Position numbers and translations under genes: made by a program. This document shows positions 8,548-29,065 of a stretch of 62,030 nucleotides of DNA, piece by piece. The notes under the pieces are model-generated. The model was not told where the DNA came from, made no database searches, and saw only the letters and a program-made list of their open reading frames with translations. Numbering within the stretch: position 1 is the first letter of the stretch; each line of letters starts with the position of its first letter. The stretch spans positions 1 through 62,030 of the forward strand of contig QKGS01000006.1 in NCBI GenBank assembly GCA_003250355.1. The letters are read 5' to 3'. This DNA comes from Bacteroidota bacterium. Its GTDB lineage: Bacteria > Bacteroidota > Bacteroidia > Bacteroidales > SZUA-534.

Positions 8548-9237
8548 TTAAATAGCTTCATTTAACCATAAAAACTCTTCTCCTGTTTTCTTTGTATATT
8601 CAAAATCAGAATTCTTCATTTCGGCTACTATTGCAAATGCAATTTTCTTAAATTCCGGAGAACGCATTACTACCATTTGTAGGGCAAATGAAATTGACCT
8701 AATTACCTGCATATTAGTACTGGTAATCTGTTTATTAAATGCGGCAAGTAATTCTTTTATTGTGTCATCATTCAGTACATTGCGTTTTACCCCCCAGGCA
8801 AATGAGTAGTTTGCAAGAATAGTGTCGTTGTCGCCTTCCTCTCTTAGTGTTTCAATTATGGCTGGCAAATATGGTGTTTTTGAGTAAAGATTCTTAGAAA
8901 ACTGCTCAATTAATTCAATGTTTTTAATCTGCTTCGATATTTTAATATAGTCATCGGTACTCAGTTTTTCTGCATTAAACAGTAACGAAGCAAGTATCAT
9001 TCCTTCGCGAATATTAGTATTTAGAAGCTGATACCCCAATGCATTGTCAGTTCTGAATTTTGAAGCTATTTCAAATAGTACAGGCATTGTTACACCATAA
9101 TTTAATCTATAGCTTAAACCCATTCTGTTCATCTGTTCTGCAATGTCGCCGTTTTGACGCATTTTTACTAAATACATAATCTGCTTTAAAGCAATGTGAG
9201 GGCTTTGCAGAATACTGTCGGGTAAAGGAAAACTCAT
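8548..9237 (-). CDS. AlkD-like DNA alkylation repair family protein (HEAT-like)
   Basis: This all-helical protein of 229 residues fits the AlkD/ALK HEAT-like glycosylase family. The stretch QMNRMGLSYRLNYGVTMPVL (about 35-54) and IREGMILASLLF (about 76-87) are typical of the Bacteroidota branch. AlkD proteins excise alkylated bases without flipping them. I cannot confirm the catalytic Trp/Asp positions, so enzymatic activity is an inference. It is followed downstream by MsrBA (68 bp) on the same strand. A terminator separates it from the upstream ferredoxin. Confidence 0.65.
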   Translation of the reverse strand: MSFPLPDSILQSPHIALKQIMYLVKMRQNGDIAEQMNRMGLSYRLNYGVTMPVLFEIASKFRTDNALGYQLLNTNIREGMILASLLFNAEKLSTDDYIKISKQIKNIELIEQFSKNLYSKTPYLPAIIETLREEGDNDTILANYSFAWGVKRNVLNDDTIKELLAAFNKQITSTNMQVIRSISFALQMVVMRSPEFKKIAFAIVAEMKNSDFEYTKKTGEEFLWLNEAI

Positions 9238-9298
9238 ATTTATATAGGTATAATTTGAATGAATGCCATTGTAAAATATGTTGCAAATAAAATAAATG

Positions 9299-9326
9299 AA
9301 AAAGCCCCAACCTAAAGGCAGGGGCT
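9299..9326 (-). terminator. terminator of the ferredoxin gene
   Basis: On the minus strand AGCCCC (9326-9321) pairs with GGGGCT (9308-9303) around an inner CC/GG pair, followed by a T run. It lies 22 bp after the ferredoxin stop codon. Confidence 0.8.
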
Positions 9327-9347
9327 ATTTATACTTTTTAGTATAGC

Positions 9348-9518
9348 TTATTCAGCCGGAGCAATAGCATCAACCGGGCATGCATCACTACATGTTCCAC
9401 AGTCAGTACAAATTTTTGGATCGATTTTGAAAATATCTCCTTCAGAGATAGCTTCTACCGGACATTCCGGCATACAAGCACCACATGCTATACAATCAAT
9501 TTTAATTACGTAAGCCAT
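9348..9518 (-). CDS. small 2[4Fe-4S] ferredoxin
   Basis: This 56-residue protein carries two classical clusters motifs, C-x2-C-x2-C-x3-CP, starting at Cys9 (CIACGACMPECP) and Cys37 (CTDCGTCSDACP). It is a clostridial-type low-potential electron carrier for anaerobic metabolism such as pyruvate:ferredoxin oxidoreductase or hydrogenase. It is transcribed alone: a -7 box TAAATTTG lies 30 nt upstream and a terminator follows. The gene was identified by translating the minus strand directly. Confidence 0.95.
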   Translation of the reverse strand: MAYVIKIDCIACGACMPECPVEAISEGDIFKIDPKICTDCGTCSDACPVDAIAPAE

Positions 9519-9547
9519 TTTTTATAAATTTAGATTAATAACTAAAA

Positions 9548-9555
9548 CAAATTTA
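9548..9555 (-). promoter_or_regulatory. -7 promoter box of the ferredoxin gene
   Basis: The minus strand reads TAAATTTG, a full TAnnTTTG match, 29 nt before the ferredoxin ATG. The -33 region is only T-rich. Confidence 0.55.
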
Positions 9556-9628
9556 ACATTTACCTCGATATAAAAAAATGAAAAACAGAGGTAAACTATA
9601 TTTTTCTTAAAAAAAGTGTTTCTTACTT

Positions 9629-10288
9629 TTATTGTAAGTGTGCAATTTGCGATATACCACCTTTAGTTTTATTGCCTATTTTTACATCAATAATATATTC
9701 TGATGGCAATAGAATATCGACCCTAGAGCCAAAACGGATAAAACCCAGTTGATCGCCGGCATTTATATTGTCATTTGCCTTAGCATATGTAATAATTCTT
9801 CGTGCTACGGCTCCGGCAATTTGTTTTACCACTATTTTTTTATCTAGTTTAGTCGGCTGTAGTATAACAACCGAACGCTCATTCTCGCTTGAAGCTTTTG
9901 GTAAAATAGCTCGTTTAAAATTTCCGTTAAAATGCATACTGTCAACAACCTTACCCAAAACCGGCAACCAGTTGATATGAACATTCCAAACAGACATAAA
10001 AATTGAAATCTGGGTCATTTTCTGACCGGTATATTCCTCGTTTTCAATTTTTTCGATTACTACTACTTTGCCATCGGCAGGGGCAATTACTTCATTTTCA
10101 TTAAATGCAATATTTCGATAAGGGAAACGGAAAAAACGTAAAACGAAAATAAGTAAAAACAATGCTATAAATGCTGCTGTTATATCAACATAAACATTTG
10201 CAATAGTGTATTTTAGTAGAACCAGAACTGCCAGTTCAATTAATACTACGAATAGAATAATGCTTATTCCTGCTTTGTGAATCCTCAT
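9629..10288 (-). CDS. psd: phosphatidylserine decarboxylase proenzyme
   Basis: This 219-residue protein is a short (archaetidylserine-type) phosphatidylserine decarboxylase, making phosphatidylethanolamine. It has an N-terminal hydrophobic region of two helices (about 8-50). The conserved APADGKVVVIE (about 69-79) and NVHINWLP (about 103-110) follow, and then the self-cleavage site in IRFGSRVDILLP near residue 190, where the Ser becomes the pyruvoyl group. It follows cdsA by 4 bp, so both enzymes of the PE route are cotranscribed behind ftsH. Confidence 0.92.
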   Translation of the reverse strand: MRIHKAGISIILFVVLIELAVLVLLKYTIANVYVDITAAFIALFLLIFVLRFFRFPYRNIAFNENEVIAPADGKVVVIEKIENEEYTGQKMTQISIFMSVWNVHINWLPVLGKVVDSMHFNGNFKRAILPKASSENERSVVILQPTKLDKKIVVKQIAGAVARRIITYAKANDNINAGDQLGFIRFGSRVDILLPSEYIIDVKIGNKTKGGISQIAHLQ

Positions 10289-10292
10289 TCAA

Positions 10293-11108
10293 TTATATTT
10301 TAACAAAAAAGTATAAATACATATAAATTAGTGGTACAGATAGTAAAATGCTATCGAATCGGTCGAGCACTCCGCCGTGTCCGGGCATAAACTGACCTGA
10401 ATCTTTCACGTTAACACTTCTTTTAAGCAACGATTCGGAAAGATCGCCTAATGTACCGAATATAACAACAATTGCCGATATTACAACCCAATGCGTAAGT
10501 GAAACTATGCCAAATACGTTTGGTGCAAAGAACGATAAGCCAATTGTAATAGCTGCACCGCCAATAAAACCTTCCCACGACTTTTTGGGTGATATTCGTT
10601 CAAATAGCCGGTTTTTGCCAATTGTAATTCCTACAAGATATGCTCCGGAATCGTATATCCATGTTAATACAAATATCCCAAGTAGTAAATTGCCATTGAA
10701 GCTACCGGTATAAAATACCAGATAGTTCATTAATGCAAATGGCACGGCAATATATACTAACCCAAATATTGTATAGGCAATATTTACAAAAGGATAGCGT
10801 TTAATTCGGTATAGTTCAAAAACTATTATAAATACAACAAGAGGGACTAATAATAAGAATAAATTGGGGTGATGCTCTAATATATTTGAAGCAAAGCTAA
10901 AAGCAAACAACAAAATGGTAATAATAGCTGCATACGACTGTTGAGCACTAGCTCTAAGTCTTTTTCCCAATTTGAAAAATTCTAAAAGATTTGCAACCGC
11001 TAAAGTTACAAATACAAATGCAAATAAATATTGATTTATTAGCAGCGAAGCTACTAAAACTCCAACATAAACTATTCCGGATAGTCCTCGTTTAACTATA
11101 TCACTCAA
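10293..11108 (-). CDS. cdsA: phosphatidate cytidylyltransferase
   Basis: This 271-residue polytopic membrane enzyme makes CDP-diacylglycerol from phosphatidic acid and CTP. The C-terminal family signature is clear: SPKKSWEGFIGG (about 173-184), GDLSESLLKRSVNVKDSG (about 221-238), and the terminal PGHGGVLDRFDS, which carries the metal-binding acidic residues. About eight hydrophobic segments are present. Its start overlaps the end of the DUF2007 gene by 8 bp, and psd follows after 4 bp, so it is in the middle of the rsfS-ftsH-DUF2007-cdsA-psd operon. Confidence 0.94.
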   Translation of the reverse strand: MSDIVKRGLSGIVYVGVLVASLLINQYLFAFVFVTLAVANLLEFFKLGKRLRASAQQSYAAIITILLFAFSFASNILEHHPNLFLLLVPLVVFIIVFELYRIKRYPFVNIAYTIFGLVYIAVPFALMNYLVFYTGSFNGNLLLGIFVLTWIYDSGAYLVGITIGKNRLFERISPKKSWEGFIGGAAITIGLSFFAPNVFGIVSLTHWVVISAIVVIFGTLGDLSESLLKRSVNVKDSGQFMPGHGGVLDRFDSILLSVPLIYMYLYFFVKI

Positions 11109-11307
11109 AACCTAACAGTTTATTTATTAAATGTTTTGCTAAAATAACATTTTCCTGTTTAGCATATACTTCTATATCACCAAACAGGTATGCTGAGTCT
11201 TTTTTATTCATAATAACAGCTTCTATGCCATTGTCAATAAGGCACTCTACAGCCATTTCTGCTTCGTGTTGCTTTCCAAAAGAATAAACAGATACCCAGT
11301 CACTCAT
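11101..11307 (-). CDS. DUF2007-family small protein
   Basis: This 68-residue protein fits DUF2007 (putative signal-transducing, PII-like fold). The start MSDWVSVYSFGKQHEAEMAV is typical: family members begin with a short strand and a helix that includes A-E. I chose the ATG at 11307 because translation from the upstream in-frame ATG adds a non-homologous 17-residue tail overlapping ftsH. It lies 10 bp after ftsH and overlaps cdsA by 8 bp. Its role is unknown. Confidence 0.8.
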   Translation of the reverse strand: MSDWVSVYSFGKQHEAEMAVECLIDNGIEAVIMNKKDSAYLFGDIEVYAKQENVILAKHLINKLLGFE

Positions 11308-11317
11308 TGCTCTATTA

Positions 11318-26076: not shown

Positions 26077-26368
26077 AAGGCAAATACAAATAGTTTATAT
26101 ATACTATCAAAATTAGCACTATATGTATTGAAATACAAATTAATTTTATATTTTTTGTATTTCATTACATAATATGAATTTCTATTTTGTAGTCTATTAC
26201 AAATATAAACGCCTTTGCTAATTAAACTACTTAACCTTATAAAAGGAGAAAAGCTCTTATCATACAAGATAATACATGGCTCAACATTAGGAATAATAAT
26301 AAATAATCATTAGTTTTAAAAGTGTAACAATTAATGTTACGTGCATAATGTTGATTTTTTGAGTAAAG

Positions 26369-26397
26369 AAACCGTCTCAGTTTGGGGCGGTTTTTTT
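26369..26397 (+). terminator. terminator-like hairpin in the flippase leader (possible attenuator)
   Basis: AAACCGTCTC (26369-26378) pairs with GGGGCGGTTT (26384-26393, two G-U pairs) around the loop AGTTT, and continues into seven T (26391-26397). It is immediately followed by an in-frame ATG (26398). No gene on the plus strand ends nearby, so this is either an attenuator for the flippase or the terminator of a small upstream RNA. Confidence 0.65.
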
Positions 26398-26436
26398 ATG
26401 GAAAAAAATTATTTTTGGACAACTTATATTGCTTTT

Positions 26437-28473
26437 ATGTTTAAAATAAAACTAACAGGTTTCTCAAGAAATATTCTGACGTTATTTTCCGGTTCAGTTG
26501 TTTCAAATATTATAACACTTTCGTTAATTCCATTTTATACATCAAAATATACTTCTGATTCAATAGGAATATTTTTTGTGTACAATTCTATATCTATTAT
26601 CATATCTTCATTTTCAACCCTACAAAGCCATTATTCTATTATACTTGGAGAAGATAAATCAGAGACTTACCGTAATTTTATTTACTCAACACTAATTAGT
26701 CTTGTTTTATCATTGTTAGTATATATACCATTATTATTATTTAAACAATACATTATATCAATTATTGGAACAATAAACAATAATTTAATATTTCTTATAC
26801 CTATTGGGGTTTTGTTAATTGCAATTACACTATGTCTTGAAAACTATTTTACCGGGATGGAAAGGTATAGTATTATAAGTAGAATGAGAGTTATCAGGGT
26901 AGGTATAATGGCGACAATTCAAGTCTTGTTTTATAAAAAAGGGGTTAATGCTTTAATTGCCGGATTTATTGTTGGATACCTGATATCAATAGCTTATATG
27001 TTTGCAAATATTAGATACACTGAATGTAAGGGGCATTTTTCGAGGGAAAGTATTAATTCTTTTATAAAAACGCATAAAAATATTTTGACATTCAATACAT
27101 CAATAGTTGGTATACTTCAGACAAGCCAACAAATACCAACTATTGCAATTGCATGGTTGTATGGAAATGATATTGCCGGAATATATGGGTTGGCTCATAG
27201 AATTATAGCTACACCACTAAATATAATTGGGCAAAGTTTTTCTCAGGTGTATTCAAAAAGGGCATCGCTTTTGTTCAATCAAATGTTACCACTAAAATCG
27301 GTAACTAAAAGAGTTGCAATCAACTTATTTGTAGTTTTACTAATACCTACATTAATACTTTTGGTAGGAGCCGATTACTTTTTTAACCTTTTTGACACTC
27401 AGTGGGAAGATGGTGGACAATACCTAATATTAATAGCACCTTGGGTTTTTATGCAGTCATTTAATATGCCATTTACTAATTTGTTTACAGTACTCAGGAT
27501 TCAAAAACAAATATTAATTGTATATATTATATTGCTCATACAGAGACTATTGTCAATAATGTTGCCATACTATATTTTTAATTCTGTTGAATATACTCTA
27601 ATTAGCATATCGGTATTTAGTGTTGTATATTATGGTTACTATTATATTTTCATTACAAGGAAAGCACATACTAACGATATATCTTTATTTGATAGATTTA
27701 ATTCCGGAAAAGTTCAAAAGATTGATAATATATTAAATACTAGTATTGGAGAGATATCATTTATAAAGATAGGAACAGTATTTAACCTTCCGGTAAAATG
27801 GATAATGGGTAAAAAAGAATTATTGCTTTTTGCTTTAAAAAGTACTAAGTCGTCATTAAATACATTAATTGACAACAATGAAAAGGTACTGCAATTAAAC
27901 TTCAAAAAAGGGTGTTTTGGACCAAAACCGGGGATGCAATTTACTGTTGATATTCCAAAAGCAAAAAATATTGAATTGTCATATATGCTAAAGTTTTCAG
28001 AGAATTTTGATTTTACAAAAGGTGGTAAACTGCCAGGCTTATCGGGAGGTAAAATTATGGTTGGAGGCAATTCACCAAACGGGAAAAATGGGTGGAGTGC
28101 AAGAATGATGTTTTTAGAAAATGGTAAAATCTGCAATTATTTATATTATGGTGACATGAAATCTAATTTTGGAGAAAAACATATTGTTAATAAAAGCGAC
28201 ATTCCATATTTTTTACCTAAGAATGAATGGATTACGATAAATCAACAGATTAAGATTAATGATATCGGAAGTAAAAACGGATTTATAAAAACATCAATAA
28301 ACGGATTACTTTTGGCTACTATTAGTGATATAGCTTTAAGTAAAACAGAACATCTTCAAATTGATAAATTATTATTTTCATGTTTTCATGGAGGTGATAA
28401 TATTGAGTATGCTCCTAAAAACGATTGCTATATCCATTTCAAGAATTTCACAATAGAATACTACAATGAATAA
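26437..28473 (+). CDS. polysaccharide flippase fused to a PL14-like lyase domain
   Basis: This 678-residue protein joins two unrelated parts. The first (about 1-425) is a PST/MOP-type Wzx flippase with about 12-14 hydrophobic helices, starting FKIKLTGFSRNILTLFSGSV. The second (about 450-678) resembles polysaccharide-lyase family 14 jelly rolls: GGKLPGLSGGK, SARMMF with ENGK, WITINQQIKIN, GFIKTSINGLLLA, FSCFHGGDN and a final HFKNFTIEY. I chose the ATG at 26437 because it begins directly before the first helix; ATG 26398 would start inside the T tract of a terminator-like hairpin. The next gene overlaps by 8 bp. The pair probably exports or tailors a surface polysaccharide. The fusion is unlike flippases I know. 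Confidence 0.72.
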   Translation: MFKIKLTGFSRNILTLFSGSVVSNIITLSLIPFYTSKYTSDSIGIFFVYNSISIIISSFSTLQSHYSIILGEDKSETYRNFIYSTLISLVLSLLVYIPLLLFKQYIISIIGTINNNLIFLIPIGVLLIAITLCLENYFTGMERYSIISRMRVIRVGIMATIQVLFYKKGVNALIAGFIVGYLISIAYMFANIRYTECKGHFSRESINSFIKTHKNILTFNTSIVGILQTSQQIPTIAIAWLYGNDIAGIYGLAHRIIATPLNIIGQSFSQVYSKRASLLFNQMLPLKSVTKRVAINLFVVLLIPTLILLVGADYFFNLFDTQWEDGGQYLILIAPWVFMQSFNMPFTNLFTVLRIQKQILIVYIILLIQRLLSIMLPYYIFNSVEYTLISISVFSVVYYGYYYIFITRKAHTNDISLFDRFNSGKVQKIDNILNTSIGEISFIKIGTVFNLPVKWIMGKKELLLFALKSTKSSLNTLIDNNEKVLQLNFKKGCFGPKPGMQFTVDIPKAKNIELSYMLKFSENFDFTKGGKLPGLSGGKIMVGGNSPNGKNGWSARMMFLENGKICNYLYYGDMKSNFGEKHIVNKSDIPYFLPKNEWITINQQIKINDIGSKNGFIKTSINGLLLATISDIALSKTEHLQIDKLLFSCFHGGDNIEYAPKNDCYIHFKNFTIEYYNE

Positions 28474-29065
28474 TAAGACAAATAAAAAAGAGTTTAAACA
28501 CTTTATTGATCAGGTTATTCTACGCAGAATTGTTAAGTTTTTCTATCCGGAATACAAAAGACCCAGATATGGTTATGTTACACACGCTAAAATATTGAAG
28601 CAGTACTTTTTTATGCAAAAAGTTATTGGTATAAACAGAAAAATTCCTTGGCCGGTCGATTTTAGAACAAAAATATATGGGTGGGAACATATAAAAAAGG
28701 GAATCATCTGTGATCCGGGCGATTCTCCCGGTTGTTATATCAACGCATACGGAGGTTTAATTCTTGGCGACAACGTTGAGATTGCGGCCAACACTGTTTT
28801 AGTTACAACTAATCACGATAAATATGACCAGCGTAAAACATATGGTGAAAAAGGGATTATTATTGGCAGCAATGTATGGATTGGTGCTAATTGTACAATC
28901 TTGCCAGGTACTATTATCGGCAATGAAGTTACAATTGGTGCAGGCTGTGTAGTTAGTGGTAATATTCCTGACAAAAGCACAGTAACAAGAGCTGATAATT
29001 CAATAAAAATAAAACCAAAAACTAAAAATTACCAGTGGGATATTTATAAAGAAAAGCTTACATAA
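28466..29065 (+). CDS. hexapeptide-repeat O-acetyltransferase (LbH/MaA-type)
   Basis: This 199-residue acyltransferase has left-handed beta-helix repeats (about 90-185), such as IGSNVWIGANCTILPGTIIG and GAGCVVSGNI, with the catalytic His in TNHDKYDQRKT. The N-terminal 60 residues are basic and aromatic. It is of the sugar or antibiotic O-acetyltransferase kind used in polysaccharide tailoring. Its ATG overlaps the flippase stop codon (ATGAATAA), so the two are translationally coupled. Confidence 0.85.
   Translation: MNNKTNKKEFKHFIDQVILRRIVKFFYPEYKRPRYGYVTHAKILKQYFFMQKVIGINRKIPWPVDFRTKIYGWEHIKKGIICDPGDSPGCYINAYGGLILGDNVEIAANTVLVTTNHDKYDQRKTYGEKGIIIGSNVWIGANCTILPGTIIGNEVTIGAGCVVSGNIPDKSTVTRADNSIKIKPKTKNYQWDIYKEKLT

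Follow-up and report, generated by a model that had tools for sequence, protein, structure and literature searches.

A gene in the window (the whole 62,030-nucleotide stretch of DNA that we analyzed) encodes a protein in which a Wzx-type flippase is naturally fused to a complete lyase domain of the PL14 type. We have seen this flippase–lyase architecture in one genome. What is new is a clade of five PL14 proteins, this domain included, that are encoded in biosynthetic cassettes. The features of the fusion gene and its surroundings are listed in Table 1.

Table 1. Features of the fusion gene and its immediate neighborhood, in window coordinates
Feature	Position	Strand	Evidence
Terminator-like hairpin and U-run	26363..26399 (within 26352-26411)	+	Fold of 26320-26437
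Wzx/MOP-type flippase part, about residues 1-411	26437..27669	+	Pfam, AlphaFold helices, Foldseek, loop charges
Short linker, about residues 412-422 (about 11 residues)	27670..27702	+	Between helix 384-411 and residue 423
PL14-type polysaccharide lyase domain (about residues 423-678), complete and lacking a signal sequence	27703..28470	+	Pfam, model, Z-scores
Codon of Lys531, equivalent of Aly36B Lys143	28027..28029	+	Alignments
Codons of Tyr568-Leu569-Tyr570, the first of which corresponds to Tyr185 of Aly36B	28138..28146	+	Alignments
Hexapeptide-repeat acetyltransferase (WbbJ/WcaF-like)	28466-29065	+	Pfam, NCBIfam, sequence

The gene, its domains, and its topology

The fusion occupies one uninterrupted frame on the forward strand (26437-28473), which translates to 678 residues. 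The longest open reading frame that contains it runs from a GTG at 26341 to 28473 (710 amino acids), and the gene could start at either ATG 26437 or ATG 26398. The initial annotation had claimed that a flippase reads through, without a stop, into a PL14-like domain, and this is confirmed: there is a single frame, Pfam matches both halves, and the motifs that it quoted are in the translation (GGKLPG from residue 529, SARMMF from residue 554, and FSCFHGGDN). With NCBIfam, the whole protein has no match at E up to 0.01. We saw no stop or change of frame at the boundary between flippase and lyase, and the halves are alike in G+C content (28.4% for the flippase and 28.9% for the lyase; the acetyltransferase gene has 34.2% and the window 35%), which argues against a frameshift or an assembly artefact, as judged from the assembly sequence rather than from reads. 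A separate lyase from an internal start is also disfavored: the ATG of Met460 sits within the folded domain, and translation from it would yield a lyase that lacks its first part.

In the C-terminal part, PF21294 (Polysacc_lyase_14) matches residues 480-671 (E = 5.6e-35; 121.5 bits against a cut-off of 27; positions 4-215 of the 215 in the profile), and by sequence this part also matches the solved structures of AkAly30 (5gmt, 1.1e-14), Aly36B (6kcw, 3.8e-11), and vAL-1 (3a0n, 3.5e-4). A model built from residues 400-678 and 20 relatives has a mean pLDDT of 86.1 and a pTM of 0.84. It aligns to AkAly30 (5gmt) with a Z of 28.5 over 230 residues at 2.0 A, to Aly36B with a Z of 28.0-28.4 (28.0 for 6kcw), and to vAL-1 (3gne) with a Z of 24.9 over 219 residues; the next entries after the PL14/PL36 lyases have a Z of 15.3 or less. 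The initial annotation had put the lyase at residues 450-678 (about 230 residues). Its family was right and its start was not: the pLDDT of the model does not reach 50 until residue 423 and has a mean of 85 from about residue 430 onward, and similarity to the nearest free-standing relatives sets in over the same stretch (about 423-430). From the model and the Z alignments together, the lyase domain is complete and the linker is short; what has been joined to the flippase is a whole domain that lacks a signal sequence.

The active site also appears to be intact. The lysine of GGKLPG, which is invariant in the alignments, is residue 531, and Lys531, Met558, and Tyr568 match Lys143, Met171, and Tyr185 of Aly36B; the window also has Tyr570. 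(The Aly36B numbering comes from the titles of 6kcv and 6kzk, which fit a Lys-Met-Tyr spacing of 28 and 42.) In AkAly30, we take Lys99, Tyr140, and Tyr142 to be the catalytic residues. These are the equivalents once the numbering offset is set by two cysteines that are named for AkAly30 in a passage of PMC8618178. So the PL14 domain that had been proposed is borne out, with its active-site residues retained, given the full-length profile match, the beta-jelly-roll fold, and the catalytic lysine and tyrosine, and the domain is probably active.

In the flippase half, PF13440 (Polysacc_synt_3) matches residues 71-310 (E = 1.2e-8; 35.1 bits, curated cut-off 23), and the full-length AlphaFold model (mean pLDDT 74.1) has 12 long helices, from 8-29 to 384-411, followed by the jelly roll. 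When Foldseek is run on this model, PL14/PL36 lyases rank first, followed by MATE transporters and WzxE; the flippase fold has TM-scores (by target) of 0.66-0.70 to WzxE 9g95, 9g9o, and 9g9n. The profile match above the cut-off and the 12-helix MATE-like fold place it among the Wzx/PST flippases. Confidence in the model is lower at residues 311-400 (helices 9-12, pLDDT 50-64) and at residues 401-474 (below 50). In the underlying alignment A5 (36 copies of P0001 and shortened flippase rows), the flippase rows cover 271-315 of the first 412 residues, with 51-60 residues per row misplaced beyond residue 412; alignment A4 (25 copies of P0001) is better. Because of this poor coverage, helices 9-12 are weakly supported by the model, to which hydropathy and Foldseek add some support. 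Plain hydropathy recovers 10 of the 12 helices.

The initial annotation had reasoned that an even number of helices would leave the lyase in the cytoplasm, and with 12 helices in the model, this is where we infer it to be. If the N-terminus is taken as inside and the membrane cores are taken from the model helices, then the loops have 18 lysines and arginines inside and 4 outside. WzxE has 12 helices, and both of its termini are cytoplasmic, according to part of PMC11706664. In our opinion, it is very unlikely that an extra membrane segment or an inverted topology instead places the lyase in the periplasm, where, as a fused counterpart of its exported relatives, it would cut glycan or polymer that has already been flipped. 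The free-standing relatives do look exported (see below), and a weak hydrophobic segment at 440-458 (score 0.75), as a thirteenth helix, would place the lyase outside. But this segment lies inside the folded lyase (pLDDT of about 82), its counterparts in the relatives come after their signal-like segments, and the loop charges favor a cytosolic end. A second weak segment (616-634, score 0.65) is within the jelly roll.

The initial annotation had noted coupled translation with an acetyltransferase; the acetyltransferase gene downstream and the fusion gene do have 8 bases in common. The acetyltransferase matches Hexapep from Pfam (5.5e-13) and WbbJ from NCBIfam (4.4e-14, which is far below the curated cut-off). 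Directly 5' of the fusion gene, the very stable hairpin overlaps the alternative start at ATG 26398. Its region folds with -34.1 kcal/mol (z of -4.87 against shuffles), and a search of the window for its core, with up to 3 mismatches allowed, gave a single occurrence. A simple terminator scan did not list it. Because the upstream gene is divergent, the hairpin may be an attenuator of the fusion cassette. Rfam gave nothing near the fusion gene and one tRNA in the whole window. By eye, the neighbors of the fusion gene have the names of housekeeping genes, and we recognized no glycosyltransferase beside the cassette.

Relatives of the lyase domain

The initial annotation knew of no such flippase, and neither did our searches find a second one. 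Counting the window's own genome, PF21294 matched in 7 of 99 relatives, in 2 of 20 genomes of the family, in 15 of 393 of the order, in 7 of 395 of the class, and in 17 of 395 of the phylum; it also matched in 1 of 2 genomes of the family of another genome, G201. The fusion searches total 1,405 genome look-ups (the own genome twice), and the genome sets overlap and are samples. When the whole fusion protein was compared with the 99 relatives, 54 had a match, and no other match spans both parts. A scan of contigs from 84,980 species with one peptide pattern gave 228 relatives of the domain, and none of the PL14 frames in the best 80 of the 228, which we read, matched the flippase. Neither the window nor L038 (the G201 locus) fits this pattern, so siblings like either of them would be missed; the sole cover for close siblings of the window is a single-protein scan of the same contig collection, which gave no relative. 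Finally, 144 of 214 loci bear PL14 by profile (these partly overlap), and a frame that joins both domains is limited to the copies of the window itself (L001, L002, L087, and L207). So the claim stands for the searched genome samples and the scan, and it is weaker for siblings that resemble the window. Judging by titles, we found no description of a fusion between a flippase and a PL14 lyase in the open-licence PMC literature. The fusion is seen in one genome only, which does not allow a measurement of selection on it.

The domain's closest relatives support the role in polysaccharide biosynthesis that had been proposed, and their neighbors disfavor a degradative role for the clade. In L038, the flippase (10051-11316, minus strand) and the acetyltransferase (9512-10054, minus strand) overlap by 4 bases, and the PL14 gene (8673-9515, plus strand) is convergent with the acetyltransferase, end to end, with another 4-base overlap. 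In L118 (Bacteroidales UBA5349), flippase, acetyltransferase, and PL14 genes are consecutive on one strand. In L117 and L122, there is an MBOAT O-acyltransferase (by Pfam in L117 and by profile in L122), a second gene (which matches DUF1574 in L117), and then the PL14 gene. These two biosynthetic cassettes (L117 2486-5735 and L122 2507-5762) had no match to the flippase profile in the stretch examined. When 95 loci (94 with PL14) were scanned with profiles, flippase or acyltransferase neighbors were found only at the window, L038, L118, L117, and L122, although the profiles were built partly from clade loci, whose own matches are by construction, and the scan could miss distant flippases or acyltransferases at other PL14 loci. 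(At L160, an acetyltransferase-like gene lies about 3.7 kb away. Among the 94, L128 is the same place as L032 and L195 the same place as L036; L070-L086 and L197-L199, with flanks of about 1.5 kb, were outside the scan.) In contrast, the genes around L032 (G021) seem to encode secreted and outer-membrane-like proteins, going by their names.

The same five domains form a clade with support of 97/91 in a tree of 42 rows (41 different, with the 37 other rows picked by hand and most long-branch rows left out). In a tree of 112 rows, where L001 stands for the window and L018 for G201, they are again one clade, with support of 81, or 95 for the four without L118. The five also have an insertion in common. 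It reads GKKELLLF in the window and, in L117, GYKDRILF; L037 has part of it. The window's domain is the longest end branch of the 42-row tree (1.77), which may reflect relaxed or changed function. Also, L117 and L122 have Trp at the position of Tyr568, so this position is not strictly kept in the clade. The other four members have N-terminal hydrophobic segments, with 13-residue scores of 2.07-2.81, as compared to 0.89 at best in the window's domain, and by eye these free-standing relatives look exported.

These results bear on whether the fusion could be an accident: a recent joining that stranded a tolerated, near-idle lyase in the cytoplasm, or else a join made by the assembly. We consider this rather unlikely. 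It would account for the single genome, the longest branch, and the lack of a second fusion among the 144 PL14-bearing loci, but not easily for a complete domain with its active-site residues, for a frame without a stop or shift, or for a G+C content that is common to both halves. Furthermore, the downstream acetyltransferase is of the kind expected from the separate-gene cassettes, and an in-frame misjoin exactly at the domain border is unlikely. The initial annotation had named separate genes in all relatives, together with evidence of a frameshift here, as a refutation; the genes are indeed separate in every relative seen, but nothing indicates a frameshift.

The history of the cassette is probably not simple. 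The window's flippase is 28% identical to those of its family relatives L098 and L099, 24% to that of L118, and 19% to that of L038, and this closer match to family relatives counts against one simple cassette history. The genes that flank L118 resemble those around L038 (by eye), and the acetyltransferases of the two are 58% identical, so L118 and L038 may be one ancestral cassette; the window is at another site. L038 and L105 come from genomes of the same genus and share an adjoining row of genes, but their flippase cassettes differ: G201 has a flippase, an acetyltransferase, and PL14, and G098 has a flippase and a 523-residue protein that a search did not identify. This position looks like a swap site. 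In L098 (3032-6747, from G007 of the window's family), MBOAT and a partner gene adjoin a convergent flippase, without PL14, which is a possible cassette variant. In three family relatives (L098, L099, and L101), the flippase homologue is within two genes of a 927-residue gene.

A possible role at the flippase mouth

The window's own genome has four other Polysacc_synt_3 genes. It also has four matches to PF03721 (nucleotide-sugar dehydrogenase), two of them strong, which are a possible source of uronate sugars. By eye, contig C97 (L209-L211) has what looks like a large polysaccharide locus at about 13.7-43 kb. It includes three matches to the acetyltransferase profile and an MBOAT with 55.8% identity to the L117 MBOAT. 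It also encodes a 513-residue protein with 12 helices, which neither the flippase profile nor PF13440 matched. Given this separate locus, the fusion seems to be an accessory flippase.

Wzx flips Und-PP-linked oligosaccharides once they are assembled in the cytoplasm. We propose, and would give it an even chance, that the fusion, with its probably active lyase, meets a uronate-containing lipid-linked glycan at the mouth of the flippase and binds or trims it. With a linker of about 11 residues holding it to helix 12 at the cytoplasmic end, the lyase would encounter undecaprenyl-linked oligosaccharides at the inner mouth just before flipping, and it would either load the flippase by binding the glycan or trim unwanted, perhaps non-acetylated, units. 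That the glycan is acidic is an assumption of this proposal. O-acetyl groups hinder alginate lyases, and since acyltransferases are in all five cassettes, we favor a link with acylation. The fusion would shift the lyase to the side of the membrane opposite to that of its exported relatives. Against the proposal, we count those relatives, the single genome, the longest branch, the Trp in L117 and L122, the lack of a recognizable glycosyltransferase beside the cassette, and the low pLDDT of helices 9-12.

Polymerization in the Wzx/Wzy pathway is periplasmic, which would leave a cytosolic lyase with short oligosaccharides only, and this too counts against our proposal. Such substrates fit binding better than depolymerization, and the PL14 domain might be a lectin-like receptor that binds the acidic lipid-linked glycan and makes the flippase more selective, without cutting. 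This is unlikely but we take it seriously. Some lectins have the same fold (at much lower scores), two members of the clade have Trp in place of Tyr568, and selection of a decorated substrate by a MOP flippase has a precedent: TacF is a gatekeeper for substrate decoration with phosphocholine (in a passage of PMC13385700). On the other hand, the equivalents of Lys143, Met171, and Tyr185 of Aly36B are all kept, and a pure lectin could lose some of these.

A more specific version of our proposal, that of binding or trimming at the mouth, is an export checkpoint, which we think is improbable. The overlapping acetyltransferase would decorate the uronate-containing lipid-linked glycan in the cytoplasm; acetylated glycan would be flipped, and the lyase at the mouth would destroy non-acetylated units. 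The flippase, the proof-reading lyase, and the decorating acetyltransferase would then be one editing unit, and the exported lyases from the sister cassettes would act similarly on the polymer outside.

The fusion bears on how a Wzx flippase distinguishes a glycan that is finished and correctly decorated from one that is not. With a glycan-specific enzyme at the loading side, and an acetyltransferase that would decorate the glycan, flippase selectivity becomes testable with one protein. Also, because the five known members of the clade are all in flippase or acyltransferase cassettes, the clade suggests that some lyases that would be presumed to degrade food are part of how a cell builds its own coat.

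Comparison with known systems

The fusion resembles WzxE, the lipid III flippase of the MOP/MATE group, in its 12-helix fold and in the Polysacc_synt_3 family, and both ends of its flippase are expected to be cytoplasmic. Unlike WzxE, which has a short C-terminal tail with its arginines at the cytoplasmic entrance (as described in part of PMC11706664), it has an enzyme domain of about 255 residues at its cytoplasmic end. With the PL14/PL36 alginate lyases (AkAly30, Aly36B, and vAL-1), it shares the jelly roll and the aligned lysine and tyrosine. Those enzymes have no flippase part, whereas the lyase of the fusion is tethered to the membrane and has no signal sequence.

Another MOP flippase with a soluble C-terminal addition is MviN/MurJ of mycobacteria and corynebacteria, whose extended C-terminal part includes soluble domains, one of them cytoplasmic (an excerpt of PMC10166564). 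Unlike the fusion, this is a lipid II flippase with a signalling pseudokinase and no carbohydrate-active enzyme, and MurJ has 14 helices (from a passage of PMC13385700). The C-terminal domain of the fusion is PL14, and the protein had no kinase family among its Pfam matches at E up to 1 and no NCBIfam match.

Last, the fusion is like AlgL and PslG in that a cutting enzyme is encoded with genes for polysaccharide synthesis (PMC8829089 and PMC9075953, each in part). AlgL clears alginate from the periplasm (in the same part of PMC8829089), and PslG illustrates that a cutting enzyme from a synthesis cluster can alter what the product does (in that part of PMC9075953). But AlgL and PslG are separate proteins, and AlgL has another fold, while in the fusion the lyase is joined to the exporter itself.
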